IMG/VR virus record: IMGVR_UViG_3300032360_000001
Span: 25,346-89,345 of that record
DNA: 64,000 nucleotides
DNA from: a virus
Strand: one strand, 5' to 3'
The notes under the pieces are model-generated. The model was not told where the DNA came from and searched no databases. It saw only the letters and a program-made list of their open reading frames with translations. Of this stretch, positions 6,001 through 59,858 are shown piece after piece. The position numbers and the translations under genes are program-made. The stretch's first letter is position 1. The number at the start of each line of letters is the position of its first letter.

Positions 6001-9000
6001 TCTGTTCTAAAGCTGTTCTTAATACCACCGCATTATGCCGCGCTCTTATGTTTCTGTCCCCAATTTTCGACTCTGCCACTAGCAGCCGCTTTTGCACTTC
6101 GGTTAGCTTCGATTCAATCAGCGTTCTCTGAGCGTATAAAGCCTTTAATTTGTCTTGTGCTTTGCCAGCCTCAATCGTTCTGTTTTTTATTTTTTCTTCT
6201 ATTGCCGCAATCTCCTTAGCGTTGTCTGTTATTTTTTTCTGGGCTACATTCGCCTTGTGTATTTCGTTATGGTATGCTACGCCTTCTTTAAATTGTTTGT
6301 CGAGTTGTGCAGCAATTTTCTTTTGTTGATTGGCGGTGAGTTTCTGCCCCAGCGTGTGTTCAATACTATATTGGGCCGGGATATTCATTTTGTCCCCAGC
6401 ATTAATTCTATTAATGTTTGCAATTTGGGGATTTGCCCCTTTTAAATTGTCTAGAGAGACTCCGTAGGTTTGCGCAATTGCATTAGCTGTATCGCCACCC
6501 AGTATTGTGTGCTCCCGCGCTGCCGTAAATCCAAGTGCCGGTGGCCCCCCGACATTTCCGCCGGGTGCTGTTATCATCCGTTGATGAGCCTTGCCCTGAC
6601 TTAGATTAGTCAAAAATCTGTACGCCATGTCTCGCTTATCACCAAACGTGGCCGGGTCGTTTTGCATACCTGAGATTTTCCATATACTACCGGGGCCCAG
6701 CATTGAGTGTTCGTAGTCACGGGTGCGGTCCGGGGTGAACACCCCCCCTTCTTTTCTCACTGCTGCCCGTCGCCACAAGGCATCTTGGTTCAGTTTACCG
6801 CCAAACAAACCCCCTTCGAAAGTACCGGGTGACAAACCCTCGGGGCCCATGCCTGTGACCTTGCCAGCAATGTCCGGCATCGCGTCCTTTAGCTTATCCA
6901 TCCATTGCCCCCCAACTCTTTTTGCCACGTTGACCTGTTGAGGCCCCCTGAAGGCCGCAAGCAGATTCTGATTTATGAAAACGTTGGCCATCTCCATCGT
7001 GTGCCTACCTAGCGTTCTTGCCATAGCAGATGCTTTCTGCGTGGCGGCGGTTTGGACCCGTTTGACGGCGGACATATCTTTGTTCGCAGCTTCTAAACCT
7101 TTTTCTAATTCTTGGAAAGGCAGATCGCCCAAAAACGGTGCCAATTTATGAATTTCATCAATCATTTCCGCGTTGTCGCCCATTAACCGTTCCGCGGCTT
7201 GTCGCGCTATATCATGTATTTTATCCGAGCCAGTCTTCAGCTTAGTTAGGTATATAACGCTTGCCCTTCCGCCGGGGTCGCTTACCTCTGGAGACGCTTT
7301 CTCTACGTCCTTCATCATTTTATCTATCTCGCTAGGATCAGGAATATTCTTAAACGCTTTATCCGGGTCGATACCTAAAAGTTCCTTTACGCTTGGTAAT
7401 CCGCTTCTCGGCCCCTGATAGCCTTTATTTCCTCTTAAGAATGATCTTCCGTATTTACCAAATGTTTGTCTAGCCATTGTGGTAAGTGGCTGAGTAGTTT
7501 GTTCTGTTCCTCTTCGTACTTGACCAGCAAGCATACTACCCGGAATAAGAGGTGGGGGTATTGGTGCTGATGTAGTTTGTTTCCTGAGGTCAAAAAGTTT
7601 GTCTCTTAGTAGTCTTGAGCTAGACCTTCCCTCTATTTCATCCATTGCCCTTTTGTATTGCTCCGGCAACAGATGGAGTGCGTTTTTTATTTCTTCTCGT
7701 TGACTTTTTGAAACAGTTTCGTCGGATAGTATAGCTTCAAGTATGTTAGTGAGAACATTTATAACTATATCTTCTTTATTATTAAGAGCATTTTTTGTGT
7801 CTTCGTTTTCGCTTGAATTAAGTTTACTCAAGGCGTCTATCGATTGCTGTATAGCTAATAAAGGAGTTTCAAGCGGGTCTGCCGATATCGCTAATTCGGT
7901 ATCTGCAAGCTCGTCAATGGTAGCATTAAGAATTTCCATGCCGTTTGAGAAATTATCTGCATAGTCTGCAAAACTGTTCAAGGCATCGCTGATATTATTC
8001 CCAACATCCATGGTGTTGACTGAAAAAATCCATTCCTTCATGGTATTTTCAGCCGCCTTGGAAAACGAATTTGTCCATTCTTTCACTGCATCCACAGTGC
8101 CGCCACCTTTAGGCCTGTCCGGAACACCCCCTCCAAGATCTATCGTTGATGACCTGAATGGTTTAAGCTCCTTTATCTGCTTGCTCAAAAGAGCCGCTAT
8201 CTGTTCTGCTAATTTTTTATCTACTACAATCCCTTTGTTTGGATCAATAATTGCCTTAAGACTGGCTTGAAACGCATCTGTTATTGTGTCGAATTGTTCT
8301 AAGAGCGGTTTAATATCCCCCTCCCTCTCAAAGAAGCCCTCCTCGTCACCGGTTCTTAAAGCCACGCCTTCTAAGACCTTTCTGATCCGAGCCTCTTGAC
8401 CTTCGAACTTGTCTAGAGCAGCCTTAATCAACTTAGCCTCTGAGACGTCTACTGTCCTCCCCTCCTTAAAGGTCTTTTGAAAATTAGTAAATAGCAGCTT
8501 CCCTGCGGAGCGGTAATCCTCCATCATGTCGCTGACCCCGACCATCATGCCCTCATATTCGCCTTGCTCCAGCGGCTGTTGTACCCTAATGAGTGGTATT
8601 TCATTATAATAAGACGCATCGGTTCGCCCACCACGCTGCTGCGTCTGATCCCATGTTTCACCGCCACCAATGCCGGGTGAGAGTACTTGTCGCGTTCCTC
8701 TGGTATATATCTGACCCGGTTGACTCGGGTGAACTCCGATCACGGCTGTTTGTATAGCCAATAATGCTGTAAGAAGTTTCTTCGGGTCGCTCTGCAATTC
8801 ATACGCTTCGAATCCCTTTTTGCCCGGAAGTAGAGCTACGACATCTGTCAACTTGGATAGTGCAGATATCATGTTCGGCTGCCAATTTCCGGAGTCTCCC
8901 TCGAAAACCATATCCTTTAAATCTTTTGTTAATATCTTTATCGCCTCAGAAGGGCTGGCGGAGGTTCCCATCCATGTCTGGGTTTTTTCCCAGTCATTTA

Positions 9001-12000
9001 AGTCCAATGGCAGAGTACCGCGCACCCTAGTCTCACCCGTGGGCAACTCCGTTCTTTCAATTAGTCCCTGCTCCTCTGTTACTTCACTTATTCTAGCGAA
9101 GGACCTCAGCAAGGCTTCCTGTGCTCTTACGAGGGATATCTTCATCTGACTGTCCTGCGGGACATTTGCATCAGTTAAAGTGGATTTATACGCCTCAAAG
9201 GCGACTGTCATTTTGCCTACGTCCTCAGCATTTCCGCCAGTTCGGACCCTCTCCATGAATTTTGCCATATTTATGTCAAAACTACTATCCTTCACTTCCT
9301 GTTTCGACACAGCCCAAACGTCCATCTTCTCCGTAATGTTTTCCCACGTCATAGACTCTCCCGGCAAAAGGCTCCCAGCCGCCGCGTCAATGTGCTTTAC
9401 AAGCCAAGTATTTGCCTTGTGCAAACTCCATAGAATTCCACCTTTATCAAAGATTTCCTCATGTTGTGGAGGGACCATCGAGAATTTAGTGCCCTTGCTC
9501 AAGTTGGCCATCATATCCTCGGCACCGGCTGTTTTACCCTCTAAAGAGGCGAAGGCCTTTTCTTGGTTTATTCTAGTATGCTGCAGGCTTTGTTCTCCCC
9601 TAAATACCTCTACCGCCTGCATGAACCCTGTGTTCGCCTTGGACATGATTTCGCCCATTTTTGACACGGCCCCAGTCATCGCAGTGTCTATCGCGGCTTT
9701 ATAAACTTGATCATTAGTTCTTCGCTGGTTTGCCCCGAATTCCTCTGCTGCCATTGCCGCGCTGCCAAGTTTTTCATTTGAAACTATAAGATCGTAATTA
9801 CTGCCAATAAGTAAAGCCGTTACGTCAACATTTGCACCCAGACTCTCCACCAACATGTTTCTGTTTTTGAACTCGGCCTCTAGAAGTTTAGCTTTATATG
9901 CTCGTTCTTCTGACGCAATTTTTGACAAATTAGCTGAGTCCATAACCTCCGCCATCATTCCGCCTTGAGCAGAATTCATGCTTTCTATTATACTTTTCCC
10001 TATGTCTGGATTAAAGTTGCTATTAATGACTCTACTTACGTTTTCCGGGCTCATTCCAAGGGCCTCTAAAGCGTCGGGGGCTTCTGCCCTAAAGGTTCTT
10101 TCCAGAAGGCTCTCTTTCATGGCCTTACCTATGCCATTTGCGAAATCAAATCCCATTTTTTCCAGATCTCTTAGCCCCTGCATCTGCATCATTGCCGCTT
10201 TTGACCTCTCGCCCCTAGTTGGAAGCCCCGCCACAGTCGTTAACTTCTTCAAGGCGTCAATAATGCCTCCTCCGCCAAAACCTCCCCCCGCTGTCATGGA
10301 TTCCTGCAGGGTTCTTCTTCTTTGAAACGCCCTGTTCGATTCTGCAATTTGATTTTGAATTATCAGAAGCCTATTTGATTGGGCAAGATTTAAATTGTTT
10401 TCTTTTATTTCGTATTCTGCTTTGGAAAGTGCATCTTCTAGTTTTCTACCCTGCTCTCTTCCGACCCCCCCTTCCTTGTCATTGATTATTCCTCTGTATA
10501 TATCCGCGGCAAGATCAGCTGGGCCGACTATCATTTGCCGCGCCAAGACTTGAAGTTGCTGCAATCCGCCGGGCAAGCTTCCCCCTGCGCTGCTTTTTTC
10601 CATGGTCATCTTAAGGATTGCGTCGTGAAATCTTTTTTGCAACAGGGTATTTTTTAAGGTGTTAGTTTCTATATTCTTGAGTATATTGCCGGCAACTCCA
10701 AATCTTTCCCTGCGTTCCCTACCAATCGTTTCGTCCCCCGTTACGGCACTTGATAATTCCTTGCTCACTTTCTGACTGTGGTCAAAGAGAGATTTTGATA
10801 CATTCATTAAATGTTCAAATGAATTTGATATTTGTGATAACCTATAGTTTAGATCAGCCGTAGCTAGTGCCATTCTTTCTATCGATTCTACAGATTTTGA
10901 AGTTTCTGCTTCGAGCTCTTCATACCCTCGGGCTTGAGCCATTATCTGCGGTATAAGACCTTGATTTTCTTCTCCAAGCGCTTCTATCATGTCTGCGGCT
11001 TCTTTAGCTCCAACGCCCATTTCTTCAAGCTTAGCCGTTAGATCAGCGCCGGATTTACCCATGAGTTCCCAACTCTTAATTCCTTTTAATTCGAATGCAG
11101 AAGATAAGGTTTTCGCCAAGTCCTTCATTACTCCTCTTTGCGCTGCGCCGCCTTCCCCCGCTTTCGCCGCTAATACGCCCATCGAACCTTTCTTTTCCTG
11201 CATGGAAATAGTTTCCTGCACTTTAGCCATGGCTTCTCGCATTTTGCTTTCATCACCAGCAGCACCAATTAGCTCTCTCCTTAGTCCCGCATCCTCGATT
11301 TGCATGAGTTGTTCTCTCATTTGTCTGCGCATCATCCCCGTTTCGGCAGGACCAGCGCCCCTATTAAACATGCCGGTTAATCTCCCCTGCAGTTTAATAT
11401 ATGCCTCCGCGCCGAGTAAGGCTTTCTTTCTCGCCTCCGTCTCTTTTTGAATAGCTTTCGCGTAGTCTTCCGCTGTTTTCTTGCTGGCTTTTTGATGGTC
11501 CATGAACGCCAGCCCGGCACCAATAGCTAAGCCCGCTGCCGCGCCCCAAGGACCGCCAATCATTGCGCCAGTTCCGGCCATCCCTGCCGCGGTGCCAACT
11601 CCTCTAACTTTTGCTTTCTCTGCTCTTTCTTCTGGGGTTTCGCCTTTGCCTCCAACAAATTGTTCGGCCACTCCAGCCATCATTTGAATACCTATTCCCA
11701 GCCCAAAGCCTTTTTGTTTGATCCACTTACTCGCGGCACCTTTCGTGTCCGGTTTTAGTGCTGCGGCCTTTTCTGCCGCTTTTGCTTCTGCGTGTTTTGC
11801 GGCGGCTACTTTCCTTGAGGTCGTTGCCATTTTCTTGTCCATCGCCCAAATTTTTGCTTGAGCGGCGGCCTTTTTTTCGTTTGCTGCGTTTGCTCGATCA
11901 GCAGCGCGGGCTTCAGCCTCTCTCGCCTTTTGAAGAAGTAAGGTTTTTTTGGTTAGGTCCTTGGCTGCTTTATCGCCGGAATGTTCGCCGACGGATCCCC

Positions 12001-15000
12001 TTGGGGTTCTTCCTGAAGTATCTACGGATTGTGAAATTATTTTACCAGCTTGGGCGTGGCCTTGTTGTCTTAGCTTTTCGATTTTTGCATTGTATGCTGG
12101 GGTGTGTGGAAGACCAGTAGAAGGATTTATTCCGGGAACGCCACCAACGGTGCCTCGCTCTGCGCGTAACCCAGTCATTCCTAGTCCCGCTGGTCCGGAA
12201 TGCGCCATTCCAGCGCCTCGCGGCCCCGGGGTACCGTGCATTATTGCCCTGTTCACTTCTCTTCGAACTATTCTATCTGCTGCTTTTTGCTGCGCCGCTT
12301 CAGCTTGCTTTACGCCTCCCGTTCTCTCCCCCCCCGGAGTGGTTCTCGTTCCGAATTTGGCCTCCATTCGGCTCTTGGTCGCCTTCTGAGCGTCGCGCCC
12401 ATGCTCCTTGACCTCCGTTTGTAATCTAGTTTTTTCTTTTTGTTGGGCTTTTCGTGCTCTTTCTTGTTTTTTAGCGGCTGCTTTCGCTTTTTTCTTTATA
12501 TCTTTTTGTTTTTCGTGATCCGCCTTTTGATCGGCCAGCATTTTTGTTTCTTGAGCGCTGTCTCCGCCCATTTGCATCATCATTCCTGCCATCATCATTC
12601 CTGATGTCATGGCCATGTAATCAACGCTATCTGCAGCATAGTTGGGTATGTAACCCCCACTTGCCCTCGAGCCCGCTTTAGCTGGGTCTGGGTGAGATCT
12701 AACAGCTTTAATTAGATCCGCCTTTGTCCGTTCATCTCTCTTATTTCCTACCGCCAAACCTTTGTATTCTGGAGTATCTATGGAAGCTGCATAAAGTTGA
12801 TTTTCGGGTAACCCGGTGGCTTTCTTTTCCCTTCTAAACGCATCCGCTAGTGCATCGCCTTTGCTGAAACTAGGAATGAGCCCTTGGCCAGCTGGATTAA
12901 CCTGCCCCCAATTACTGCCATAATTTACTATTCGGGGCCGTATATTCATATCTTTGCTTGCACCTCTTAGTGCCGCGTAATATGCGTTTGCCCGTGAGTC
13001 TTCATAGAACTTTGCGTTTTGTAAATGTGGGCGTTCAAAAATTTCATAGGCCTTCTTCTGGTGAGTTTTCTCTATCCCTTTGGGGTATTTTCTGCTTCCA
13101 GTAGCTATTACTTCCCTGTATGGAATTTTTTGGGCTTTTAACCAAGTCTGAATATATGGAATTGAATCTTCCCCTCTTGCGGTTAAAACCGTCATTGGCT
13201 CTTTATTTTTTGAGGCTGCCTTCGCTAATTTAGTTGGTACCATATGACCGACAGACCAACCATGCCACGTATCCCCTTCTCGCATTTTTCTCATACCTGT
13301 TGGGGTGGTAACCATCCCTTTTGGAGGTACTCCCAACGTCCCATCAAAATCAAAAATGTTTCCCTTTCCGCGTCCACGGGCTGCGGCTGCCATCGATCCT
13401 CCCCGCATTAAATTAGGAATGAAACCTTGGGCCGCACCAAAATGCGTCATTAGTTTATCATAATTCGATGCCGATGGACTCCCTTGAAGGATCTTCATTA
13501 TATCCTTACCAAAAATATCTTTTATTTGTGTAGCGCCTTTGGCCCCCTCAAGCGTAACTTCACTTTGGGAAACTCTTTGCATTCTTTGGAAGTCTGCCGT
13601 TTTTGCGGTATCTATATAGTTATCTAATTTTGTTAGATCGCCCTGCAACTTCTGCGGACTGTGGAATGTGCCGGCTTTATCTTTGTAGCCGCCGCGGGCA
13701 ATATTCTTTTCTATTCCTGTCCGTAAAAAATGCAATAGTCCGCCCTCTTTACCCGAGTCAGAAGAGAATAACGATTTGTACGACAGGCTTCCTCTGGCGT
13801 CTCTGCCGGACATCCCCGCATGAAAACTTGGTTTGAATTCAGCAGGTCCAATTATTTTCCCCCCTTTTATAGCTATTGCATCTAGAATTGTTTCTCCTTG
13901 CCCCCCCTTTACATTGCTAAACGGCAGAAGTTGATGGCCGCTACCACGACCAACAAGGGCTTTTTCTATTAAACTAGAATGAGTTAATTCCGCTTTTGCA
14001 AAAAATGAGCCTTTAGCAGCGGGGTTGTTACCTAGCACCTCCATTGCCCTTTCTCTTGCCCCCAAGAATGACCGTGCTGTCCCGCTTGGGTGGTATACTA
14101 TATCTTGTGCTATACGCGACGCGTTACCCGCACCCCCAACTGAATCGACGAAGCCCTTGTACGCCGTCTTACCAACCGCCGGAGATAATAGATCATTGTA
14201 AAATCGTTTTGCAACATCGCTTGGCATTGTAGCTCTCGCAACTGCTACTTCTCCTATTTCTCCTAACGCTATTTTTCCCTTTGCGGCTGACACACCATGA
14301 CCCGATATTGCATGATCATAAGCGGTCCTTAATACGTTTTTTTGCCCCTTAGGAACCTTGGGTCCGGATTTATGGAATCTCCCTATTCCGAAACTTTCTA
14401 AAGAAGCGGCTGCTCCTTTTCCGGGCATGGCTACTGTACCCAACCCCAGTTTGCCTCGACCAAATAAAGAAAGCATCGCTGGGTTGGCGAAATTTGGAAC
14501 TGAATAAGGATCGACACCAGTTTTGGCCATTGATTTTTCTCTATGTTGCCTACCGGCCTTCGAGTGCTGTGGTGGATTAATGAATGGCTGAGCAAAGCCG
14601 GGTACATGTTTAACCTGTTCTTTTGAGTTGTAGGTCATTGTTCCAAGCCCGGGCATTTTCATTTGTTTTATGGCTCCTGCTTTGTACCCGCCTTCTGCTG
14701 CGCTTATTATTTCACTTACAGCGCTTTCTCTCTTGTTAAAATTCGGTATGTGTCCCCGCGCCGAGTGTTTGGGCGGTCTACCCCTCATATACGCCGGTGC
14801 CTGTACTTGTCCTGCACCACTTACGGTTACCCCGCCCTTTACCATCATGCCAGCCATTCTTGCGGCAACCTTCTCCATGTTCTGCATCACAAGGGTCTCT
14901 TGCTCGAGCATAGCGATTATTTCTCTTTCTACCTGCACTCTTGCTTGCGATGACTGCGCTGCTCTTGCTATAAGTTGTGGCTGAGCTTCCAATATTTTGG

Positions 15001-16426
15001 CTATTCCTTCTTGCAAGCTTTTTTGTTGTACAGCAGCGGTGTTCAAACCCATGAATTGGGCTCCTGATTCCTTGACGAATTTTGCTAAATTCATTCCAAG
15101 TTTTCCAAGGAATCCAGTTAATAAAAGAAGTCCCGGGCCTTGCAAGAAATTTCCAATTCCGGACAACATTCCTTGCGCAATTTTTCCCCCCACATCTTTC
15201 GTGTCCTTTTCGTTTATGTCGCCTAAAACTTTTTGCATAACTCCAACCACCCTCTCTGTGACTGGTCTTAACGTTAGGTCTCCTACTTTCTTTGCTGCCT
15301 GCGTGGCTAGAGCCATCGTCTTTTTTACTTGAGCGTCGAGAGTTTTGTTGAGCAGTTCATTTCTTAATATCGCTTCGTTTGTCGATCCCGTCGATACCTT
15401 AACGGCTTTATCGTAAATCGAATATTCTTGTCCAAGGTCAGAGAGTATCGCTCTTAAGTTATTCATTTGGAATACGCCAGCAGTAACCTCAGCAGTATGA
15501 GCTTGTTGAGCCTTAGATAGCGTAGGAAACTTTTTGGCCAAATTGCCAAGAACATTCATTGCGGGCATCATTTGCCCCTCCAAGTCTCTCACCTTCACCC
15601 CTAATTCTTCCAAGAGATTAAGAGTGTCTTTTCTTTGGATTCTTGTAAATATACTTTTTAACGCGTTACCAATAACGGGACCACCACGGGCCGTTGTTTG
15701 CTGAACGGAAGCTGTGATTGCAAGAAGTTGATCAAAGGATACGCCAACGTCCTGAGCGGTACTTCCCACACGCCTCATGGATTGAGCTAAATCATCTGTG
15801 CTTACGGCAAATGCCGCATCCACATTGGCAAGCTTATTAATTACCTGAGTAGAACTTAATGCCTCCCTATTGAACGTATTTAATGCTGCCGTTAAGGAAG
15901 AAACTGATGCCGCCGCATCCATACCGGAAAGTCTCGTAAGAATGAGGGCGTCGCTTGTTCTCTGAAGCGTCTCTTCGGTTGACAAACCTTGCCTAGCTAA
16001 TTCTGTCGCTGCTTCAGCTACAGTATCGAAACTTTGTGCCGTTTTTTGCGCTATTGTGAAAAGGCTGTTTCCGAACTTTGCGAGGCCTCGATCTGTTTGT
16101 CCTAAAATTACATTGACATCCTGAAGTCTTTTCTCGACCTCAATAGTACTTTTAAGTAAAAATTCAAATGCCCTTTGGACTTGAAAAATCGCCCCAGCAG
16201 AAGCTCCAAACGCTAAAACACGCGCATTTGATGCTTCGAGTGATCTTGTGAATTCATTTGTGGCACCAGTGATTTTCCCAAGGGGCCTAGTAAATTTCCC
16301 AGAGTCAACGCTAACGTTAACCCCTCGCCTTTCTACTTGGGTAATAGCGCTGTTTATTTGCCTTAAAGTGGCTTGTAGTGACGCGCTATCTAACCTTGTT
16401 CCTAGTGTGATAAAACTATCCGCCAT
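1..16426 (-). CDS. Giant tail tape measure protein with embedded enzyme-like modules (5' complete, 3' end outside window)
   Basis: The frame opens at the ATG ending at 16426 (protein start MADSFITLG) and runs without a stop to the left edge, at least 5475 residues. Residues about 30-230 resemble the TP901-type tape measure domain. Motifs of the form IPN[FYL]/IPSF occur near 560, 644 (VPNF), 1001, 1183 and 1261. Between them lie a possible PD-(D/E)XK module (D849, E863, K865) and a HAD-like module (DFDGT at 1026-1030). A glycine-rich membrane segment spans about 1603-1640. Long coiled-coil stretches follow, with a LysM-like unit near 3300-3350. A GGEFIVR motif near 4005, typical of tape measure C-termini, precedes a 1470-residue extension with a PG_binding_1-like unit (about 4940-4990), a second LysM-like unit (about 5113-5193) and a SleB-like hydrolase start (E5408 in FSEVG). 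The role is to set tail length and exit during DNA injection. An AAAAGG stretch precedes the start. The tape measure call is firm; the module calls are by eye. Confidence 0.9.
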   Translation of the reverse strand, partial: MADSFITLGTRLDSASLQATLRQINSAITQVERRGVNVSVDSGKFTRPLGKITGATNEFTRSLEASNARVLAFGASAGAIFQVQRAFEFLLKSTIEVEKRLQDVNVILGQTDRGLAKFGNSLFTIAQKTAQSFDTVAEAATELARQGLSTEETLQRTSDALILTRLSGMDAAASVSSLTAALNTFNREALSSTQVINKLANVDAAFAVSTDDLAQSMRRVGSTAQDVGVSFDQLLAITASVQQTTARGGPVIGNALKSIFTRIQRKDTLNLLEELGVKVRDLEGQMMPAMNVLGNLAKKFPTLSKAQQAHTAEVTAGVFQMNNLRAILSDLGQEYSIYDKAVKVSTGSTNEAILRNELLNKTLDAQVKKTMALATQAAKKVGDLTLRPVTERVVGVMQKVLGDINEKDTKDVGGKIAQGMLSGIGNFLQGPGLLLLTGFLGKLGMNLAKFVKESGAQFMGLNTAAVQQKSLQEGIAKILEAQPQLIARAAQSSQARVQVEREIIAMLEQETLVMQNMEKVAARMAGMMVKGGVTVSGAGQVQAPAYMRGRPPKHSARGHIPNFNKRESAVSEIISAAEGGYKAGAIKQMKMPGLGTMTYNSKEQVKHVPGFAQPFINPPQHSKAGRQHREKSMAKTGVDPYSVPNFANPAMLSLFGRGKLGLGTVAMPGKGAAASLESFGIGRFHKSGPKVPKGQKNVLRTAYDHAISGHGVSAAKGKIALGEIGEVAVARATMPSDVAKRFYNDLLSPAVGKTAYKGFVDSVGGAGNASRIAQDIVYHPSGTARSFLGARERAMEVLGNNPAAKGSFFAKAELTHSSLIEKALVGRGSGHQLLPFSNVKGGQGETILDAIAIKGGKIIGPAEFKPSFHAGMSGRDARGSLSYKSLFSSDSGKEGGLLHFLRTGIEKNIARGGYKDKAGTFHSPQKLQGDLTKLDNYIDTAKTADFQRMQRVSQSEVTLEGAKGATQIKDIFGKDIMKILQGSPSASNYDKLMTHFGAAQGFIPNLMRGGSMAAAARGRGKGNIFDFDGTLGVPPKGMVTTPTGMRKMREGDTWHGWSVGHMVPTKLAKAASKNKEPMTVLTARGEDSIPYIQTWLKAQKIPYREVIATGSRKYPKGIEKTHQKKAYEIFERPHLQNAKFYEDSRANAYYAALRGASKDMNIRPRIVNYGSNWGQVNPAGQGLIPSFSKGDALADAFRREKKATGLPENQLYAASIDTPEYKGLAVGNKRDERTKADLIKAVRSHPDPAKAGSRASGGYIPNYAADSVDYMAMTSGMMMAGMMMQMGGDSAQETKMLADQKADHEKQKDIKKKAKAAAKKQERARKAQQKEKTRLQTEVKEHGRDAQKATKSRMEAKFGTRTTPGGERTGGVKQAEAAQQKAADRIVRREVNRAIMHGTPGPRGAGMAHSGPAGLGMTGLRAERGTVGGVPGINPSTGLPHTPAYNAKIEKLRQQGHAQAGKIISQSVDTSGRTPRGSVGEHSGDKAAKDLTKKTLLLQKAREAEARAADRANAANEKKAAAQAKIWAMDKKMATTSRKVAAAKHAEAKAAEKAAALKPDTKGAASKWIKQKGFGLGIGIQMMAGVAEQFVGGKGETPEERAEKAKVRGVGTAAGMAGTGAMIGGPWGAAAGLAIGAGLAFMDHQKASKKTAEDYAKAIQKETEARKKALLGAEAYIKLQGRLTGMFNRGAGPAETGMMRRQMREQLMQIEDAGLRRELIGAAGDESKMREAMAKVQETISMQEKKGSMGVLAAKAGEGGAAQRGVMKDLAKTLSSAFELKGIKSWELMGKSGADLTAKLEEMGVGAKEAADMIEALGEENQGLIPQIMAQARGYEELEAETSKSVESIERMALATADLNYRLSQISNSFEHLMNVSKSLFDHSQKVSKELSSAVTGDETIGRERRERFGVAGNILKNIETNTLKNTLLQKRFHDAILKMTMEKSSAGGSLPGGLQQLQVLARQMIVGPADLAADIYRGIINDKEGGVGREQGRKLEDALSKAEYEIKENNLNLAQSNRLLIIQNQIAESNRAFQRRRTLQESMTAGGGFGGGGIIDALKKLTTVAGLPTRGERSKAAMMQMQGLRDLEKMGFDFANGIGKAMKESLLERTFRAEAPDALEALGMSPENVSRVINSNFNPDIGKSIIESMNSAQGGMMAEVMDSANLSKIASEERAYKAKLLEAEFKNRNMLVESLGANVDVTALLIGSNYDLIVSNEKLGSAAMAAEEFGANQRRTNDQVYKAAIDTAMTGAVSKMGEIMSKANTGFMQAVEVFRGEQSLQHTRINQEKAFASLEGKTAGAEDMMANLSKGTKFSMVPPQHEEIFDKGGILWSLHKANTWLVKHIDAAAGSLLPGESMTWENITEKMDVWAVSKQEVKDSSFDINMAKFMERVRTGGNAEDVGKMTVAFEAYKSTLTDANVPQDSQMKISLVRAQEALLRSFARISEVTEEQGLIERTELPTGETRVRGTLPLDLNDWEKTQTWMGTSASPSEAIKILTKDLKDMVFEGDSGNWQPNMISALSKLTDVVALLPGKKGFEAYELQSDPKKLLTALLAIQTAVIGVHPSQPGQIYTRGTRQVLSPGIGGGETWDQTQQRGGRTDASYYNEIPLIRVQQPLEQGEYEGMMVGVSDMMEDYRSAGKLLFTNFQKTFKEGRTVDVSEAKLIKAALDKFEGQEARIRKVLEGVALRTGDEEGFFEREGDIKPLLEQFDTITDAFQASLKAIIDPNKGIVVDKKLAEQIAALLSKQIKELKPFRSSTIDLGGGVPDRPKGGGTVDAVKEWTNSFSKAAENTMKEWIFSVNTMDVGNNISDALNSFADYADNFSNGMEILNATIDELADTELAISADPLETPLLAIQQSIDALSKLNSSENEDTKNALNNKEDIVINVLTNILEAILSDETVSKSQREEIKNALHLLPEQYKRAMDEIEGRSSSRLLRDKLFDLRKQTTSAPIPPPLIPGSMLAGQVRRGTEQTTQPLTTMARQTFGKYGRSFLRGNKGYQGPRSGLPSVKELLGIDPDKAFKNIPDPSEIDKMMKDVEKASPEVSDPGGRASVIYLTKLKTGSDKIHDIARQAAERLMGDNAEMIDEIHKLAPFLGDLPFQELEKGLEAANKDMSAVKRVQTAATQKASAMARTLGRHTMEMANVFINQNLLAAFRGPQQVNVAKRVGGQWMDKLKDAMPDIAGKVTGMGPEGLSPGTFEGGLFGGKLNQDALWRRAAVRKEGGVFTPDRTRDYEHSMLGPGSIWKISGMQNDPATFGDKRDMAYRFLTNLSQGKAHQRMITAPGGNVGGPPALGFTAAREHTILGGDTANAIAQTYGVSLDNLKGANPQIANINRINAGDKMNIPAQYSIEHTLGQKLTANQQKKIAAQLDKQFKEGVAYHNEIHKANVAQKKITDNAKEIAAIEEKIKNRTIEAGKAQDKLKALYAQRTLIESKLTEVQKRLLVAESKIGDRNIRARHNAVVLRTALEQRAIKERTDQSAMLQKTIEARGGAALLPSEITDPRAKAAADQIALNQAANEQSKGLVDSLQAERDALLEASAALEKFSKAIGISSKDLQDMSPFELDQELIRQEGLPRENLLQQMRSPRTSQPGGAFAAQTFSAISPSRVGETQQRNLKREMEKILTIEKEAAAGGRKEALAESKVAEANVLKAHMMRTAKFKDFEKSDAALGVTANEKKTAEDNVVRLLNEKAVILRKEQSDDTKEELKKVNDDLEAATEASALARKNETNQLDAHNATYADYINIINAGKDAENELRKAKQSHTDALNAQKVIIDNWGSVTQAAIEIQKRFVTAEHVKRMEALDTQIANTTMSLSIMDDPKKFKELLNSTKKLTEVQLRLAAKQARLEEAAGIGTPADTYQREQDITRQQLRTGKIGVWEAFGADTFEKGEAMSRGWKERVLDDMIEIREGMISSFADGWAAFAVEGESATETAKAWARGFLKMINQAFYNATIGRFMGNLMSGGFGNYGRPSLPQQQSGGELHGPSHSRGGIKLEAEGGEFIVRKSEVRKPGVLGHLREINEGRMFQQGGPVPQNPWRHPNTWAQQQPLMPGWGGGQQLGGNLNLGRNPLRGVKVLPGAPGNPGGEHGQFAFDKAPPAFHEVQSQMEMQELFRREIGIPGNPFRHKGTPKDLASQKMRNMRRNIAEGGYDHEKEHTLLTFAERIGVNGLPIAGFPARLNEREIAAREELQIFQERNPLAFAHLNQWWRKNKSGWANPQVYQDGGPVTQYQNAWEKKIQQRQMLQITGQIPSKGFFGQPLHKRGPMTEEGLREALIKSGRGDLSTEIPRGDEWYNLSKEALAKRAELEAEKKRMARINLEFRTENKMRSAASSSNRGVAMFAPPGMEIPRTMFGQRIGTQTRHTSTSNRTKDRATPGMMSERLWFHSFMKEKGLIGEFEQADNMGAFHQGNSQASRIYKFLMKRQTQNPRHILSEKELLDESMPELIPHIGDYNKRIFTEMGTSGLLMDPKISASISELDKIGIGSQHRWSENYALHKRLLKDRLMQGKGNAWYNKFIQAPNALPVGSPDSPTSAMGLEPDPGQGRWWNDPFAPLPKGMHRIPSRRNRQQGPSTPMPPQIPWPFEIDPATGLPRPDLRDRNSTMPGLGEGVPRFGDGGIVGTAYPWSDSPARKFNDKLPFWDRVDPRRRGFSRVGGSSGNNAFGPTAAEWGGARKDDPVRQQQLADHLAMLDRENEIDGMRDAGFGPFGMPLGGDPWPEGVHPAPWALNKRGWGAGVGPDPRKNKGNALPLNLDLMEELENLRRGPDRDVPQFGAGGVVTARDTFRAKVPKLDKNYIKKLANNSHILNWIKDPNNIERFGFTKNDTFESAYMKMIRHAEKIKLKPGKRMSQLMHPAGFSEWENGMQPGVANDMMAAGWIEPEAFGVLNEWFSIKSGGYTGLWGQDMTNFPGAAGEQGGGINAFFTGESERKDQQRALNKHLTSMGLMSPNPKAGQIKPLKIDGYAGAATTEALTLFRKKKGIPTPTRRSTLTEERARRSPINPKPKGPHRVPVPSRIEGDKKTREALGMVVGYSGMSKAGWKGRAPSGFLTKKHFKSKNRAEVEVHPYTGLPHTGGFDPEAKWELDPKNKFFDENEGFPSRYEIIPGKGLGHVVKVGEGLTSIGQQYREEMTTAKAISMGANGVTISAALAAANPELMKALKTRAGGKPDISKFLKPNDVVLIPGGEHLFNPEADKRPGMLDGKPFPGFRQGWWEQFNKMSTIYGTMQPVEYGAGGFVWNPRGGGSVPNQFRRQSALEIPATGRNQTLLPKHQAWNNRLRDFWRDTYNATAAGPNRLALATERYRAGIHGHMAAPRVRATRGAHGVSPGGYRYTRGPEASTLVGGNIDRGGVARIGPPTAAHRNAMRNRGRYFQREETPDFAAWGVHPSAVDKDVARVIFSEVGPQHPDLVFAVGDAMRNRYNNQASRTRHGISTGYGISVGGSRYPAEVRNGAWWVQAPTRRGFSWRA

Positions 16427-22160: not shown

Positions 22161-22670
22161 TTAGTATTTCCTAATTCTCGTATATTCTCTATTCGGAAGT
22201 ACATGTGATGACTGATCATCGTCCCCTGCCACCTGCAATGGTTGCACGTCGTTTAGCTTGTATTGCCCCACCATGCGCTCCAATTCCGCTTGACTTGAGG
22301 ATCGTATGCCTGCGTAGAGTTTTGCTTGTTCGTTTTTGTTAATTTTTCTAATTGATGACCCGTCTGAAGACAAAGCGATAACCGCATCTGAGGTTGCTGC
22401 GGATAATACGCTCCTCAGCTTGTTGTCGTAATAGTGTATTTGATACATTTTTTTGAGTATGCCCCCCTCATTAATACCTATTACGGTTGCTGTGCCATTA
22501 ATGTCCCTCTCTATTTCATAAGAGGACTGATTGATTGCATAGCTAGTATTCAGATAGTTATTCAACGCGCCGATGTTTGTACGTACCCAAAATGATATGG
22601 CGGCTATGCCTAGGTCTGTCGGGCTTCCTAATTCTCTGTGGATTTGGTCTGCAATGTCAACGGCTTTCAT
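22161..22670 (-). CDS. Candidate head-tail adaptor protein
   Basis: 169 residues starting MKAVDIADQIHRELGSP. The N-terminal half is helical, the usual layout of gp6-type adaptor proteins (helical bundle near the portal). An upstream in-frame TTG is less likely than this ATG. It ends with a basic NREYTRIRKY segment. It is first in the connector cluster as read by the polymerase. Family not confirmed. Confidence 0.6.
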   Translation of the reverse strand: MKAVDIADQIHRELGSPTDLGIAAISFWVRTNIGALNNYLNTSYAINQSSYEIERDINGTATVIGINEGGILKKMYQIHYYDNKLRSVLSAATSDAVIALSSDGSSIRKINKNEQAKLYAGIRSSSQAELERMVGQYKLNDVQPLQVAGDDDQSSHVLPNREYTRIRKY

Positions 22671-24829: not shown

Positions 24830-25549
24830 TTAAAATGCATATTTGAATCTATCAATATCCTCTTCGTAGTGTTTTCCTACATCGTCTATCAATTTTTGAT
24901 TAGTATAAAAGTCTTTGTAGGTTTTGCCGCTTTTAGCTAACTGTTTTTGTTCCCATGGAACCTCGTCAATGGGAGCTCCGATAATACCCGCTACGTGCTT
25001 CAAATCTTTTTCGAATGTTTCCAATCTACCAATAAAATCATAGTCAGATATACGCGTCTTTCTTTTTTTATCTTCAAGTTCAAATAAGCGTATTAGACGA
25101 CATTGGCTCATCCAGTGACAATTTGTTTTAGCATGTTGCTCCTCAATGTTAATAACAAAGTCAGCGAAAGCGTCAAAAGTTGGAGGGTCTTCTCTCGAAG
25201 AGATAAGCTCAGTCATTTGCGGTATAGTTAATCTCTTTTCGTTAGCCCATTTCTTGTTTTGCCGCACTGCCCCGGGGTAGCCAGCGTTGGTTGATTCAAG
25301 ATATTTAAGAAACTCGTAGTAACCAGAGACCAGTCGAGACCATGGGTTTCTCACAAAACTAAATATATAATAATCTTTTGGAATGATTCCGCTGCGCTTC
25401 TCCCACTCATTGCGGAGTGTACTCCCGCCGGAGTCATGCCACTTAATTGGCTGCACATCGAGAAGATCTGCGAAATAATGACACACCGACGTTGAACCGC
25501 TCTTAGGGACGTGTTGATACCCACACTTATATTCGTCAATTATTATCAC
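24830..25549 (-). CDS. Sulfotransferase family protein (second of three)
   Basis: 239 residues from a GTG start overlapping the upstream radical SAM gene by 14 nt. YQHVPKSGSTSV at residues 11-22 is the PAPS 5'-phosphosulfate loop and FSFVRNPWSRLVSGYYEF is the 3'-phosphate motif. Cytoplasmic, with no signal peptide. It is divergent from the neighbouring sulfotransferase, so the pair are not simple duplicates. The acceptor is unknown. Confidence 0.85.
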   Translation of the reverse strand: MIIIDEYKCGYQHVPKSGSTSVCHYFADLLDVQPIKWHDSGGSTLRNEWEKRSGIIPKDYYIFSFVRNPWSRLVSGYYEFLKYLESTNAGYPGAVRQNKKWANEKRLTIPQMTELISSREDPPTFDAFADFVINIEEQHAKTNCHWMSQCRLIRLFELEDKKRKTRISDYDFIGRLETFEKDLKHVAGIIGAPIDEVPWEQKQLAKSGKTYKDFYTNQKLIDDVGKHYEEDIDRFKYAF

Positions 25550-26600
25550 GCTTATACTCTGTTAAATTTCCAAGATCCACGATAGGATCGTTAAAAATTG
25601 GATTTTGTAAAATTTTAATAAACTCATTAAATTCCGGGTGATTCTTTCGCCAAACCGCTTCTTTTTTAAAGCCTCTTTTACTGAAGGCTCCCCAGTTTAT
25701 TATACGTGAAAAATATACGCTGTCTACTTTATATTTTTTTCCTATTTCTACAACCAAAGGCATTTCTTTGTAGTTGCCTACTTGCGTAACGACATCCAGC
25801 CTTAATTTTTTAACTTTGTTTTGCTGCCTTAGTTCAGAAATGAATTCTAGATTGCGATGTAATTGGTCCCAATCTCCCCCACGCCTGATAACATCATAAG
25901 TTTCCTTTGTTCCCGCGTCAATTGAGATAATGACGGTATTGATGTTGTTCTGAATTTTTTTCATTTTATCCCAGTATTTGGGGGTAAACATCACGCCATT
26001 AGTTTGAAGATTGAAAAAGACCCTAGGGAATTTCGCGCCATCTATATTAAATAATAATTCTCTAAATAGCTTTGAGCCAAATGGGTCACCCGAGCCAGTC
26101 ACGTTAACCAAGCAATACTCATTATGAGGTTTACCAAATACTTCTTTTATAATTTCATTTTGAATTTCTAAGCTCTTTTCGTATGCGGAGCCGCAAGTAT
26201 TACTGATTTTATCTGTTCTGCAACTGGGGCAACTCAAATTACAAGAGTAATCATAACACAAATTATAAAATTTAGGCCTTAGGTCGTCTATAATTTTATT
26301 GTCAACGATTTCCTTGAAGCGGGGCTCAACTTTTTCTTTTTCGGGTAGGGAATCGTTTTGTATGAGCGGGCACAGGCCCCAGTTGCAATACTTAAAACTT
26401 CCGTCATGAATGCTTGTTCTTATTTTTTTTGCTACGTCTGAATTAAACACTTCCTTAACGGAGTTGTTCTTATCTATCTTACCGGCGTGGTGAGGCAGCC
26501 ATGAGAAGCAGCAAAGCGAAACCTTGCCATCGGGGGCAACCTCGAAATGCTCAAACGGCTTAGAACAGAACTTATTCTTTAAGCTGCGCATGCCATTCAT
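25536..26600 (-). CDS. Radical SAM / SPASM-like enzyme
   Basis: 354 residues. The CX3CX2C iron-sulfur motif that defines radical SAM enzymes is present at C120, C124 and C127 (CNLSCPSC). An extra Cys group (C12, C30, C31, C72, C77) lies N-terminal, resembling a SPASM-type auxiliary cluster binding region placed ahead of the barrel. Such enzymes do C-C, C-S or epimerisation chemistry, often on sugars or peptides. It sits in a cassette with glycosyltransferase and sulfotransferase genes and overlaps both neighbours, so a role in glycan modification is likely. The substrate is unknown. Confidence 0.85.
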   Translation of the reverse strand: MNGMRSLKNKFCSKPFEHFEVAPDGKVSLCCFSWLPHHAGKIDKNNSVKEVFNSDVAKKIRTSIHDGSFKYCNWGLCPLIQNDSLPEKEKVEPRFKEIVDNKIIDDLRPKFYNLCYDYSCNLSCPSCRTDKISNTCGSAYEKSLEIQNEIIKEVFGKPHNEYCLVNVTGSGDPFGSKLFRELLFNIDGAKFPRVFFNLQTNGVMFTPKYWDKMKKIQNNINTVIISIDAGTKETYDVIRRGGDWDQLHRNLEFISELRQQNKVKKLRLDVVTQVGNYKEMPLVVEIGKKYKVDSVYFSRIINWGAFSKRGFKKEAVWRKNHPEFNEFIKILQNPIFNDPIVDLGNLTEYKRDNN

Positions 26601-44892: not shown

Positions 44893-45096
44893 TTATCTAA
44901 GTATTCTGTGCTTTATAACTTTTTTTGTCTTTTTGTCAGAATAAAGAAATACTATTTGATCCCTACCCTCCATTGGGTTGAAATACTTCACCCACTCTAC
45001 ATGGAAAGGGTACCTGTCGGAGTTCCTGTAAAGGTCGGTGAGGTCCCAGCTTCCGTCCCTTTTTTTGTGCGGCTTTTTTTTATAGTTTTTTTTCAC
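44893..45096 (-). CDS. Small basic protein, GTG start coupled to the ClpP-like gene
   Basis: 67 residues if read from the GTG at 45096, which overlaps the ClpP-like stop as GTGA and is preceded by AAGAAGAA. A longer frame from 45195 would overlap the protease by about 100 nt and is unlikely. The protein is Lys/Arg-rich (KKNYKKKPHKKRDGSW), cytoplasmic and of unknown function. Confidence 0.5.
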   Translation of the reverse strand: MKKNYKKKPHKKRDGSWDLTDLYRNSDRYPFHVEWVKYFNPMEGRDQIVFLYSDKKTKKVIKHRILR

Positions 45097-45836
45097 TTCT
45101 TCTTTTTCTTTTTGCCCGCCGGGTGTTCGGGCATCATCGCTCTGATTTCGTCGACCAGCCCCGACTCTAGACATTCGTCTGCATCTATCCACCAATCTTT
45201 GCGATCCCAGTTTCTTTTAATTTTTTGTTTAGATAATTTAGATCTGGAAACGAAAATATCAAGACAACGTTCTTCAATTCTCTTAACTAGCTTCACCTCG
45301 TCCTCTACTTCATAGGTTTTGCCGATTGCCCCGAAAGCTGCTCTGTGGATCATCATCCATGCTTGGTGGCCTATCCACCTGATATCTCCAGCTTGCAAAA
45401 GGATACCAGCCATGGACGCAGCCATTCCTAAAGAACCAGTTATAACTTTGTGTCCTTGGGATCTCATTTCTTGAAGAAAATCAAACAATTCGAAACCATC
45501 AATAATACTTCCTCCGGGTGACGAAAAGATAATCTCCATATCACATTCTGGATCTAGGCGGTGCCATTGCGTAAGCTTGCTCATGCATGCCTGCACAGAG
45601 TTAGAGTTAACATCTTTATTAAATCTGTAAAGATGATTCTCCTCGTCGGTTGTGAGTTCTTTTTTTCTTGAAATATAAGCCTTCTGGTACTCGATTTCGA
45701 CTTTACCTGCTTCGGCAAGGAGTTTTCTTGTCTCTGCGTCCTGCCTTCTTATTTCAGATTCAGATTTTAATACTTCCGCCTCTTTAATCTTAAGGTCGGC
45801 CTTGATTTCTTCTTTTGTTCTTTTTTCTTCACTCAT
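45093..45836 (-). CDS. ClpP-like serine protease
   Basis: 247 residues from the ATG at 45836, with GGAGAAA 9 nt upstream; an in-frame TTG at 45851 is a poor start. ClpP/crotonase-type signatures: SSPGGS at 105-110 (oxyanion loop), catalytic Ser141 in GMAASMAG, His164 in WMMIHRA, and an acidic candidate Asp near 217. The N-terminal 60 residues form a charged helix absent from host ClpP. The phage already has a separate prohead protease, so this one may be for late envelope or host protein processing rather than head maturation. Confidence 0.8.
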   Translation of the reverse strand: MSEEKRTKEEIKADLKIKEAEVLKSESEIRRQDAETRKLLAEAGKVEIEYQKAYISRKKELTTDEENHLYRFNKDVNSNSVQACMSKLTQWHRLDPECDMEIIFSSPGGSIIDGFELFDFLQEMRSQGHKVITGSLGMAASMAGILLQAGDIRWIGHQAWMMIHRAAFGAIGKTYEVEDEVKLVKRIEERCLDIFVSRSKLSKQKIKRNWDRKDWWIDADECLESGLVDEIRAMMPEHPAGKKKKKK

Positions 45837-45862
45837 AATGCGTTTCTCCAAGTGACCTTATC

Positions 45863-46589: not shown

Positions 46590-47774
46590 TTATACTCCGA
46601 GCTTCTTGAGCTCCTTAAGTTTTTCGTCAGGGCTCGCTAAGCCACCAATTGTTGTAAATACGGTGAGGCTATCTTTGTCTCCGGAATAAATTCCCCTGTG
46701 TACAACGTTCCCAGCGGCAAGCATCCGACACAGCTGGTCAAAGGCTTGATCTAGGTTAGCTTGAGGTATATTGTCTAATTGATTCTGTCCACCAACGACA
46801 ATTGCTCCAGCGCAACTACCAGTAGATAAGTCTATTCCTCCAGATAATACTCCACTATTGAAATTGTCTCTTACAGCCCTAGAGATACTGACGGGATTTT
46901 CCCAATCATTAACTGGTGCTGCTCCAAAGACCATGAGTCCTGAGTCTAGGACGTTCTTATAATCATTCGCGTCAAATGCGGTATAAGAGCTATCTCTAGC
47001 CGCAGTCAAATTAAATAGATGGAAAAGCCCAGCCATACTCATATTAGCGGTTTGCCAAAAATTCGATACCACAAGGTTCGGGTATACTTTTCCTATCCTT
47101 TCGTTGTCGATGACCACCAAAGGAGAAACCACGCCTTCCTTAACTAACGCATAGACGCTTTTTAGGCAATCATGAGCATTAGCGTTGACCTTCTTACCTT
47201 CTGAAGCTTTCGGTAAAGCTAAGATTACTCCTACTTTAGAAGTGGAGCATCCGAGTGTCTCTTGTAGCTCTTTAGCTGCGCGAACCAATGGTACCACAGT
47301 ACCACCTCCGGTTCCGCCACCAGCGCCTGCACAGACCATAATTCTATCAAGCTCTTCGCCAAAAGAGTACCTCATGAAATCTATTACATCTTCTTTTCTT
47401 TCTGCGAATACCTTTCTGGCGACTTCAGGGTCTTTCCCCGCTCCTCCTTCACCAATGCAAAGTTTATTGTTTAAATTAACCGTATTTAAATCCTGCTCAG
47501 CGGTGTTTAGAACCGCAATTTTTCTATAACCCAAACCGTGAAAAGTCTCAGCTATTCTTGATCCCCCTTGTCCAGCGCCGATAAATGCAAATTTGAATGC
47601 TACATCAATTTCGTCCTTCACTTCGACTGTCTGCTCCGACTGTGGGGCAGGCATGGGGATGTCTGGCAGGGATAGATCTGGTCCAGATGGGTTATTGTAG
47701 CCGACTACCCCTTGTCCGGCTTGGCCCTCTATGGGCAAGTCTACTTTTATAGAATTATCGTTTTGTTCTTCCAT
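46590..47774 (-). CDS. Tubulin/FtsZ-family GTPase
   Basis: 394 residues. GAGQGGS at 66-72 (N-terminal nucleotide loop) and GAGGGTGGGT at 150-159 (tubulin signature, T4 loop) bind GTP; FDANDYKNVL at 267-276 fits the T7 loop with catalytic Asp. A 55-residue Gly/Pro-rich leader precedes the GTPase domain. It has no long FtsZ-type tail and no MinC/FtsA-like C-terminal peptide. Phage tubulins (PhuZ, TubZ-like) build filaments that centre or move DNA or capsids in the cell. It lies between the holin-like and second tail-tube genes. Confidence 0.85.
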   Translation of the reverse strand: MEEQNDNSIKVDLPIEGQAGQGVVGYNNPSGPDLSLPDIPMPAPQSEQTVEVKDEIDVAFKFAFIGAGQGGSRIAETFHGLGYRKIAVLNTAEQDLNTVNLNNKLCIGEGGAGKDPEVARKVFAERKEDVIDFMRYSFGEELDRIMVCAGAGGGTGGGTVVPLVRAAKELQETLGCSTSKVGVILALPKASEGKKVNANAHDCLKSVYALVKEGVVSPLVVIDNERIGKVYPNLVVSNFWQTANMSMAGLFHLFNLTAARDSSYTAFDANDYKNVLDSGLMVFGAAPVNDWENPVSISRAVRDNFNSGVLSGGIDLSTGSCAGAIVVGGQNQLDNIPQANLDQAFDQLCRMLAAGNVVHRGIYSGDKDSLTVFTTIGGLASPDEKLKELKKLGV

Positions 47775-55199: not shown

Positions 55200-55920
55200 C
55201 AGATTCCTCAGGTTCCTGAGCGGGGGGTTGTTTTTCGGCGATTAAATTACAGTCGCTTCCGTGGTCGTAGAGAACATAGTACCCGCAACTATTAAAATAG
55301 CCGATAAGGCTTCTGAGTCTGTTTCCTTGGGTAAGCATTCCGTCAGCGTGAAGATGCTCGAAACAAACCTGCTTGAGAGAAGGATACCGCAATAAATCAA
55401 TACTAAACAGGTTCAGCATATCGTACCCCTCCGTATCTATGATTAAATGAGTTATGTCTGGTACTTCTCCCATTAATTTCTCTAAAGAAATCGTATCCAC
55501 CTCATATTGAAATAGTTCCCCCACTTGCGCGTGTGCGGCAGTGAAGTCTGGGTCAATTGATGAGAATGGAGAACCCCTGTCTTCGTTGGGGACATGAAAT
55601 GAGATCTGCTTACCACCAATTTCTATTGGAATGACCGCGGCAAACTTAAAATCACAAAATGAAAAATCCTTGTATTTTTCCCTCGCCTTTTCTAGTGCCC
55701 ATGGGTTCGCATCGACGAGCATGCATGAATCCATCTCTAATGCGTTTTCCTCTACGAAGGTAAAAACTGGATCATCACCGTCGTTTGTTCCTATCTGGAG
55801 AAGCTTGAGACCCTCAGGGCTTTCTTCTTCATGTGGCAATCTCGTTTTGAGATGCGTGCTATTTTCTTTTGTCTTACTCATGGGTTCTTCCTTTTTATCT
55901 CCTGTAGTCTTAAAGCTCAT
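55192..55920 (-). CDS. FkbM-family methyltransferase
   Basis: 242 residues. LKLLQIGTNDGDDP is the SAM-binding motif I and IIDTEGYDMLNL is the closing signature of FkbM O-methyltransferases, which methylate sugars and other small molecules. It sits in the packaging operon, not in the glycan cassette, and overlaps neighbours by 4-8 nt. The target is unknown; it may act on virion or host surface glycans. Confidence 0.8.
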   Translation of the reverse strand: MSFKTTGDKKEEPMSKTKENSTHLKTRLPHEEESPEGLKLLQIGTNDGDDPVFTFVEENALEMDSCMLVDANPWALEKAREKYKDFSFCDFKFAAVIPIEIGGKQISFHVPNEDRGSPFSSIDPDFTAAHAQVGELFQYEVDTISLEKLMGEVPDITHLIIDTEGYDMLNLFSIDLLRYPSLKQVCFEHLHADGMLTQGNRLRSLIGYFNSCGYYVLYDHGSDCNLIAEKQPPAQEPEESDE

Positions 55921-56618
55921 AGTATATCTACGTCTCCTTCATATATTAGTCCTTTCGCTTTTTTTAGTATGGATTTTTTTATGTTTTTAAGTTGCTTGTA
56001 CCCCGGGGATCTATTTTTTTCAGACGTCTTATACCCCATTGCCTTTGCGACTTTCTCTTCGTCCATGTTTTGCACATATAATTTTTCATAGACAGCCCAC
56101 TCTGATGGTTTTAATATTTTCTTCATTTTTTTATGAAGTTTTACCGCAGACTTTTCAATATCTACATAGTCGGATGACATACTGAACACTTCTTGGGAAT
56201 GATTTTCTAATGATACTGGCAGCTTTGTGTCGTGTGCTCTTTTTTTACTTTTTTCCCAGTTGGCGTATAGTGGGCATGTATTACATTGTTTTTGGTATAT
56301 AGTACATAAGTCCTCACCCTCAGCAGCGGCACACTTTAAACATGGTCTGGAGAAGTTTCCATAGTTGTTTCTTATTAGGTTTTTTATTTGGTTGGAGATT
56401 ATTCTGTTTAGCCAAGGACTGAGGGGTTTTTCCGGATCATATAGGTGCCATTTTTTATATATATGGATTCTTATAATTTGAGAAACATCATCAAAATCCA
56501 TCCAACTTAGAATGGTAAGATTCCACTTACCCTTCCTTTTTTGGATTTCGGTGTTGATGTCTGAGATTACGTCCTCAAAGCGAGGACGCTTCGCTTGCGT
56601 TTTTTTCGAATTAGCCAT
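55917..56618 (-). CDS. Sigma-factor-like protein with a cysteine cluster
   Basis: 233 residues. Residues about 38-84 (MDFDDVSQIIRIHIYKKWHL, SPWLNRIISNQIKNLI) follow the region 2 pattern of ECF-type sigma factors. The end (about 170-222) looks like a region 4 helix-turn-helix (SEWAVYEKLYVQNMDEEKVA). Between them is a Cys group (C93, C96, C105, C112, C115), probably a zinc site, uncommon in this family. It probably directs host RNA polymerase to late promoters. It overlaps the zinc-ribbon gene by 8 nt, so the two are likely partners. Confidence 0.75.
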   Translation of the reverse strand: MANSKKTQAKRPRFEDVISDINTEIQKRKGKWNLTILSWMDFDDVSQIIRIHIYKKWHLYDPEKPLSPWLNRIISNQIKNLIRNNYGNFSRPCLKCAAAEGEDLCTIYQKQCNTCPLYANWEKSKKRAHDTKLPVSLENHSQEVFSMSSDYVDIEKSAVKLHKKMKKILKPSEWAVYEKLYVQNMDEEKVAKAMGYKTSEKNRSPGYKQLKNIKKSILKKAKGLIYEGDVDIL

Positions 56619-59356: not shown

Positions 59357-59369
59357 TTTTAAAATAAGA

Positions 59370-59435
59370 CTGGGTGCCGGTTAGCTACTCCGGTCCTCCT
59401 ACTGCAGAAGGCATGCAAGCTCACACTACACCCAG
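59370..59435 (-). ncRNA. Structured element directly downstream of the tmRNA
   Basis: 66 nt closed by a perfect 7-bp stem (CTGGGTG with CACCCAG), containing a CCGG-loop-CCGG hairpin and GCATGC and CTGCAG palindromes. It begins 10 nt after the tmRNA 3' end and is followed by TCTTATTTT, so it may be a processing or termination structure, or a separate small RNA. It does not fold as a tRNA. Confidence 0.35.
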
Positions 59436-59445
59436 CCTCTTAAAT

Positions 59446-59858
59446 TGGTGGAGGCGGTGGGAGTCGAACCCACGTCTTTAAAACCGTCAACAAGATATAC
59501 TACAAGCTTAGTCGGTGATGTACTCGTTAGGCGACCACCGACAGACTGACTAACGAGTTTTGAGCCGCCTTTTATACTAGTGCTGCACATTCCCTAGTTT
59601 TTTGCTCGCTGTCGTCGCCCTAGCCCCTTAACGAGCATCCAGAGTAGGACGTGACGGCTTATGCCGCCATTTGGAGGGCTTCCTCCTCAACGTAACCGAA
59701 CTTGGCGAGAATCTCGTCAGCCTCGGCTACAGAAAGAGCCATCTCCATGTCAATGTCATCATTGGCATATATGTTTTTGATAGATGTTTTAAGAGGCCAA
59801 CCATCATCCTCTACTTGCAATCTGGCGTAAGGAATCAAATCGAAACCAGTACGCCCCC
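59446..59858 (-). ncRNA. ssrA: tmRNA (transfer-messenger RNA) with a 35-codon tag frame
   Basis: 413 nt, one piece. The 5' end GGGGGCG pairs with CGCCTCC before the encoded 3' ACCA, giving a 7-bp acceptor stem with a G3-U70 wobble, the alanyl-tRNA synthetase identity. A GGTTTCGAT block follows the 5' end, the T arm GTGGGTTCGACTCCCAC precedes the 3' end, and GGTTGGCCTC and GACTAAGCTTGTAG match conserved bacterial tmRNA segments. The tag frame starts at a GCC resume codon (ANDDIDMEM...) and ends ...EEEALQMAA then TAA: 35 residues, against about 10 in E. coli (ANDENYALAA). It rescues stalled ribosomes and tags the product for proteolysis. No sign of the permuted two-piece form. Confidence 0.92.

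Follow-up and report, generated by a model that had tools for sequence, protein, structure and literature searches.

A one-piece phage tmRNA with a 35-codon tag whose predicted helical middle is conserved in a group of uncultivated phages

In trans-translation, a tmRNA charged with alanine by way of its G3-U70 pair enters stalled ribosomes together with SmpB and adds that alanine and an encoded tag to the chain. As a rule, such tags are regarded as short degradation signals that can replace one another. Their commonest length is 10 residues (PMC11915505), and lengths of 8-35 are given in reviews (PMC3968760, PMC8012679). The isolated phages ET08 (Bxz1 type), G and Jay2Jay encode tags of 25, 13 and 11 residues, respectively, and a long, acidic phage tag thus already has a precedent in the Bxz1-type phages. 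The tmRNA-like RNA of mycobacteriophage DS6A is little more than a tRNA-like domain, a form that has been shown to inhibit tmRNA (PMC4131195, PMC11915505), while the authors describing marine phage Melnitz suggest selective tagging (PMC9004378). The current tmRNA database includes only 79 phage sequences (PMC11915505), and ARAGORN has been used in phage surveys (PMC9004378, PMC7162821).

The window analyzed here, a stretch of 64,000 nucleotides from IMG/VR virus record IMGVR_UViG_3300032360_000001 (positions 25,346-89,345), carries a complete one-piece, ssrA-like tmRNA gene on the minus strand at 59446-59858. It was originally predicted from an acceptor stem with G3-U70, a T arm and an encoded CCA, with a covariance search proposed as the check and a lack of any tmRNA model match as the outcome that would speak against it. 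That outcome is excluded: the Rfam model RF00023 matches over its entire length (positions 1-374 of 374) at 144.3 bits, against a curated cut-off of 47, with an E-value of 1.4e-56, which places the RNA among the tmRNAs. This match is the only Rfam RNA within the window, and no second RF00023 match was found across the full 89,345-base record. Sequence and covariance-model alignment give an acceptor stem of 7 bp, GGGGGCG/CGCCUCC, with its 5' strand, including G3 of the G3-U70 pair, at 59852-59858 and its 3' strand, followed by the discriminator A and the encoded CCA, at 59446-59456 (both minus strand). The T arm reads GGGUUCGACUCCC, and the tRNA-like domain has both the G3-U70 pair and the CCA for alanine charging.

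The resume codon, GCC (59766-59764, minus strand), follows a conserved stretch, bases -8 to -1 at 59767-59774 of the same strand, in which the adenines at -4 and -8 are present in 44 of 44 distinct relatives; this is the context expected of a tmRNA. From there the tag reading frame (59659-59766, minus strand), itself conserved in relatives, runs for 35 codons and a TAA, encoding ANDDIDMEMALSVAEADEILAKFGYVEEEALQMAA, exactly as predicted from the opening ANDD to the closing LQMAA, and the final ALQMAA and TAA provide the hydrophobic, alanine-rich end and stop codon that a tmRNA requires. A 12-codon alternative frame had been named as the finding that would overturn this reading. It was rejected, since it is not conserved among the 44 relatives: frame +1 is anywhere from 3 to 41 codons long and the -4 adenine is invariant, while frame +2 stops within 0-9 codons and frame 0 is 30-35 codons long in all 44 (these coding sequences, used for the statistics, had passed a 28-36-residue length filter, and their own length range is no evidence by itself).

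ARAGORN fails to call the tmRNA at 59446-59858. It calls one in many of the relatives, with the full tag of 31-33 residues in four (L092, L093, L094 and L176); in others it begins the tag too late or chooses a different frame. The missed call could be taken to mean that the window holds a decaying, functionless copy, but the fold is complete at 144 bits, the CCA is intact and the frame is under purifying selection, and we give this reading almost no credence. The pattern suggests that long tags lie outside what ARAGORN handles well; that it misses or trims several of them amounts to a blind spot.

The tag of the window has about three times as many residues as is usual. When control viral tmRNAs were gathered by a 3'-end pattern and read by ARAGORN, 58 of 63 tags were of 9-16 residues and the outliers of 21, 24, 27, 28 and 31, a control that may undercount long tags since ARAGORN can trim them, although most of the short ones read are complete and canonical. 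The original remark that tags are mostly near 10 residues stands as far as the commonest length is concerned, but 35 is still inside the range given in the reviews, and so lies at the top of what is known, extreme and not outside it.

Nine further tmRNAs were found in records reached by way of the terminase, every one of them long-tagged. A DNA pattern taken from the tmRNA 5' end only, and so blind to the tag, gave 46 viral loci, in which the tag frame was read by resume context alone, with no length filter. It spans 30-35 codons in 43 of the 43 loci that run far enough, with 28 distinct tags; the other three loci are truncated where the stretch ends. Long tags are a trait common to a group of phages, not a one-off, and the window tmRNA, with its 35 codons and conserved, predicted helical middle, belongs to this group (30-35 codons); no description of the group was found within the open-licence literature. 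Three tag families can be distinguished: ANDxxDMExAPSxAEADxILAKFGYVEEExLQLAA, of 34-35 residues; ANNxVDMAPSLxEADAILAKFGWAEEAAVAA, of 30-31; and ADDDMSDLLAEAEYIFNNADEFLAGVEE..LAA. There are also singleton long tags, such as AKAITNAVNVVKSFVTNVAESLFSQEEDYCLMAA. The first two families are labelled marine and the third freshwater-type here, a guess based on collection ids. No recognizable copy of the window's terminase occurs in records of the third family, and the long-tag trait thus spans distinct phages. In one type of genomic context the tmRNA lies near PhoH, sigma factor and terminase genes; in the other (L141, L144, L146, L126, L140 and L149) it lies among RecA-like, DnaB-like and primase-like genes, as read from the sequences. 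A shared neighbor gene was considered as a partner of the tag and set aside, no single gene accompanying the tmRNA everywhere.

The long tag could have been taken from, or could match, a host lineage with an equally long tmRNA tag, with nothing phage-specific about it. Published tags do extend to 35 residues; the conserved core, however, was confirmed in none of 84,980 bacterial and archaeal species genomes in a scan for this core only and not for every long tag, and we consider a host origin improbable. An Anaerolineales MAG, the only genome sharing the 22-nt pattern of the tmRNA 3' end, was rejected as cellular source or host, its tag being an ordinary one of 14 residues. Viral contig 3300020477_001105 (L223) carries at about 5-397 a tmRNA whose 27-residue tag, GKNKVSELFAKVADMFQATPKQELALA, is also long and helix-prone and is unrelated in sequence, which hints that long tags may have arisen more than once.

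Codon comparisons show codons 6-30, the added middle (59677-59751 on the minus strand), to be the most strongly constrained part of the tag. From codon 6 to five before the end, dN/dS is 0.165 (computed on 10 near relatives), 0.078 and 0.154 in three groups, whereas in the same groups it is 0.38-0.55 over the first five codons and 0.25-0.43 over the last five. Variable columns make up 39 of 71 third positions and 24 of 142 first and second positions (p = 2e-8), and the pattern recurs group by group (p = 0.00015, 0.0021 and 0.0056), these p values being optimistic because the relatives are not independent. No 3-base periodicity was seen in the flanking tmRNA, and differences in tag length among the relatives are multiples of three throughout. 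The low dN/dS and the third-position excess together argue that the peptide is translated in frame 0 and selected for its sequence. The middle is evidently under selection, and its role probably goes beyond marking proteins for destruction; its dN/dS, the lowest within the tag, supports a selected role of its own, in line with the original suggestion. It is very improbable that the peptide is instead a separate small protein begun at an internal AUG (Met7 or Met9). A methionine near position 7 is indeed conserved in the marine groups, but many freshwater-type tags and that of L122 have none there, the resume context and the ANDD-type start are conserved, and the ends are those typical of tags.

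A hairpin of 5-6 bp starts at the end of the resume codon; in the window it reads CAAUG AUGA CAUUG (59751-59764, minus strand). Stems of at least 5 bp are present in 33 of 44 long-tag genes versus 7 of 47 short-tag genes, and synonymous recoding of the former gives 8.8 +/- 2.4, with a maximum of 16 in 300 draws. Compensatory changes were found in both groups tested, and a similar hairpin is present in the freshwater-type group; one pair of that third family has gone from C-G to A-U, with an amino acid replaced on either side. Given so short a stem and sequences that are not independent, the hairpin can be called likely from these comparisons. Such folding bears on the proposal that the middle is conserved mainly at the level of RNA, a longer mRNA-like stretch having to fold compactly and the peptide simply following. 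The whole tag region can indeed fold back into one long hairpin in which 97.8% of cells are paired, and the recoding result and compensatory changes in the short hairpin point the same way. The two-sided changes, however, are confined to that first short hairpin, with no compensatory support in the long helices, and the clear 3-base periodicity with variable third positions and the in-frame length differences also count against it; this proposal keeps a slim chance. Part of the constraint may nonetheless fall on the RNA and not on the peptide.

Selection on the peptide goes together with a predicted structure. AlphaFold2, run with 28 tags, places helices at residues 13-23 and 28-34 in a helix-turn-helix with a core pLDDT of about 90, and for the third family it places them at 5-17 and 19-34, the end being less certain; the 35-residue model is small and its pTM low (0.41), as expected at such a size, and only the helices were used. 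The middle had been described as helix-prone, and helices are predicted in both families modelled. No match to the middle was found in Pfam or the PDB, and Foldseek returned no notable match to the model, which is too small for it. Searches for relatives of the tag gave only weak matches at chance level elsewhere in the window and nothing convincing among isolated phages.

The last three residues of the tag are LAA in 21, VAA in 13 and MAA in 4 of the 44 distinct relatives (38 together), ends that are canonical and of the ClpX type. Escape from host proteases, offered originally as one purpose of the long tag, is therefore unlikely. The same ends fit the main rival to a docking element, namely that the extra length only makes the tag a stronger degron, in which the added residues act as a spacer giving reach for ClpX engagement, or for joint binding of an adaptor and ClpX, and their exact sequence matters little. 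E. coli ClpXP degraded ALAA-ended tags better when a longer stretch preceded the end, AANDENYSENYALAA beating AANDENYALAA, a direct biochemical precedent for longer reach to ClpX with E. coli tags (PMC8512704), and divergent tags of equal length do exist among the relatives, as in L111 and L178. A spacer, however, would be expected to drift, yet no part of the tag is better conserved than the middle, which is predicted to be helical, not unstructured. Reach to ClpX alone is disfavored by this strong conservation in sequence, and we regard the degron reading as unlikely, if worth keeping in mind.

Candidate partners of the tag were sought in the viral records. SmpB was not found in the window's record or in 20 other viral records, many of which are fragments, and use of the host SmpB is presumed from its absence in these 21; SspB was likewise absent from the viral records searched. 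The protein encoded at 45093-45851, the only ClpP-family protein in the virus record, was considered as the protease for the tag and rejected, being the head maturation protease by PHROGs, by NCBIfam and by its place among the head genes.

The RNA, its frame, the long tag in all relatives, the selection on the middle and the predicted helices, all of them computed here, are consistent with an expressed, working phage tmRNA that would take part in ordinary trans-translation using the alanyl-tRNA synthetase, SmpB and ribosome of its host. Alanine and the 35-residue tag would be added to chains on stalled ribosomes, and the ANDD opening and ClpX-type hydrophobic end (MAA here, LAA or VAA in relatives) would still send the tagged chains to a Clp-type protease. 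Between these ends, an acidic, predicted helix-turn-helix of about 22 residues, kept by purifying selection, would serve as a docking element for a host or phage adaptor, or for the protease directly, and so set the speed or destination of tagged chains during infection. We give this explanation as a whole -- a working tmRNA, a degradation-competent tag and a docking middle -- an even chance of being right. A bolder version, which we put forward more tentatively and hold to be rather less probable, is that these phages have turned the tag into a small folded docking module: a helical hairpin on every chain rescued during infection would be read by a specific phage or host protein, the phage thereby choosing the fate of the chain, with the hairpin after the resume codon tuning entry into the tag.

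Several neighboring features deserve mention. Just downstream of the tmRNA, at 59367-59438 on the minus strand, lies a separate small structured RNA of about 70 nt with a nearly invariant core. Its closing stem of 10 bp covaries: 7 pairs have changed on both sides with all cells still paired. It matches no Rfam family, and identity as a tRNA was rejected, neither ARAGORN nor the Rfam tRNA model matching it; further copies (L322, L323, L324 and L326) stand without a tmRNA end immediately upstream. A single open frame, about 6,430 codons long, occupies 1-16426 on the minus strand and continues to record position 22482; its N-terminal part matches tape measure proteins and its later part endolysin and transglycosylase families, so that the product would be a tape measure protein of very large size, implying a very long tail. 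Recoded stops in 1-16000 were considered and rejected, this region being the single open frame of the tape measure gene. Also on the minus strand are a 394-residue FtsZ/tubulin-type protein among the head genes (46590-47774; PF00091, E 1.2e-10, with NCBIfam ftsZ below its cut-off), a radical SAM domain protein (25536-26600; PHROGs, E 2.6e-13) and a protein with sigma-70 region 2 (55917-56618), from which the phage may carry a sigma factor of its own.

A group of uncultivated phages thus keeps a tag some three times longer than usual, with an added middle that is better conserved than the parts of known importance, and this offers a direct handle on the reason for phages to have a tmRNA of their own. 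With the standard one-piece tmRNA (ssrA, RF00023), the window's RNA shares the acceptor stem with G3-U70, the T arm, the CCA, the resume codon with A at -4 and the alanine-rich hydrophobic end; it differs in its tag of 35 rather than about 10 codons, in the conserved, predicted helical middle and in the hairpin after the resume codon. The tag of Mycobacterium phage ET08 (Bxz1-type, GQ303260), ATDTDATVTDAEIEAFFAEEAAALV, is likewise phage-borne, long, acidic and helix-prone, but it is shorter, unrelated in sequence, ends in ALV and belongs to a phage of a different host. A tblastn search with the Bxz1 tag gave no match, though ARAGORN reads the tag in ET08; so short and low-complexity a query probably fails. 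DS6A, too, carries a phage version unlike the host tmRNA, but its RNA lacks a tag, where that of the window has an extended one. Melnitz, too, is a marine phage with a tmRNA, but its tmRNA is of the permuted, two-piece kind, whereas that of the window is one-piece and carries the long tag.
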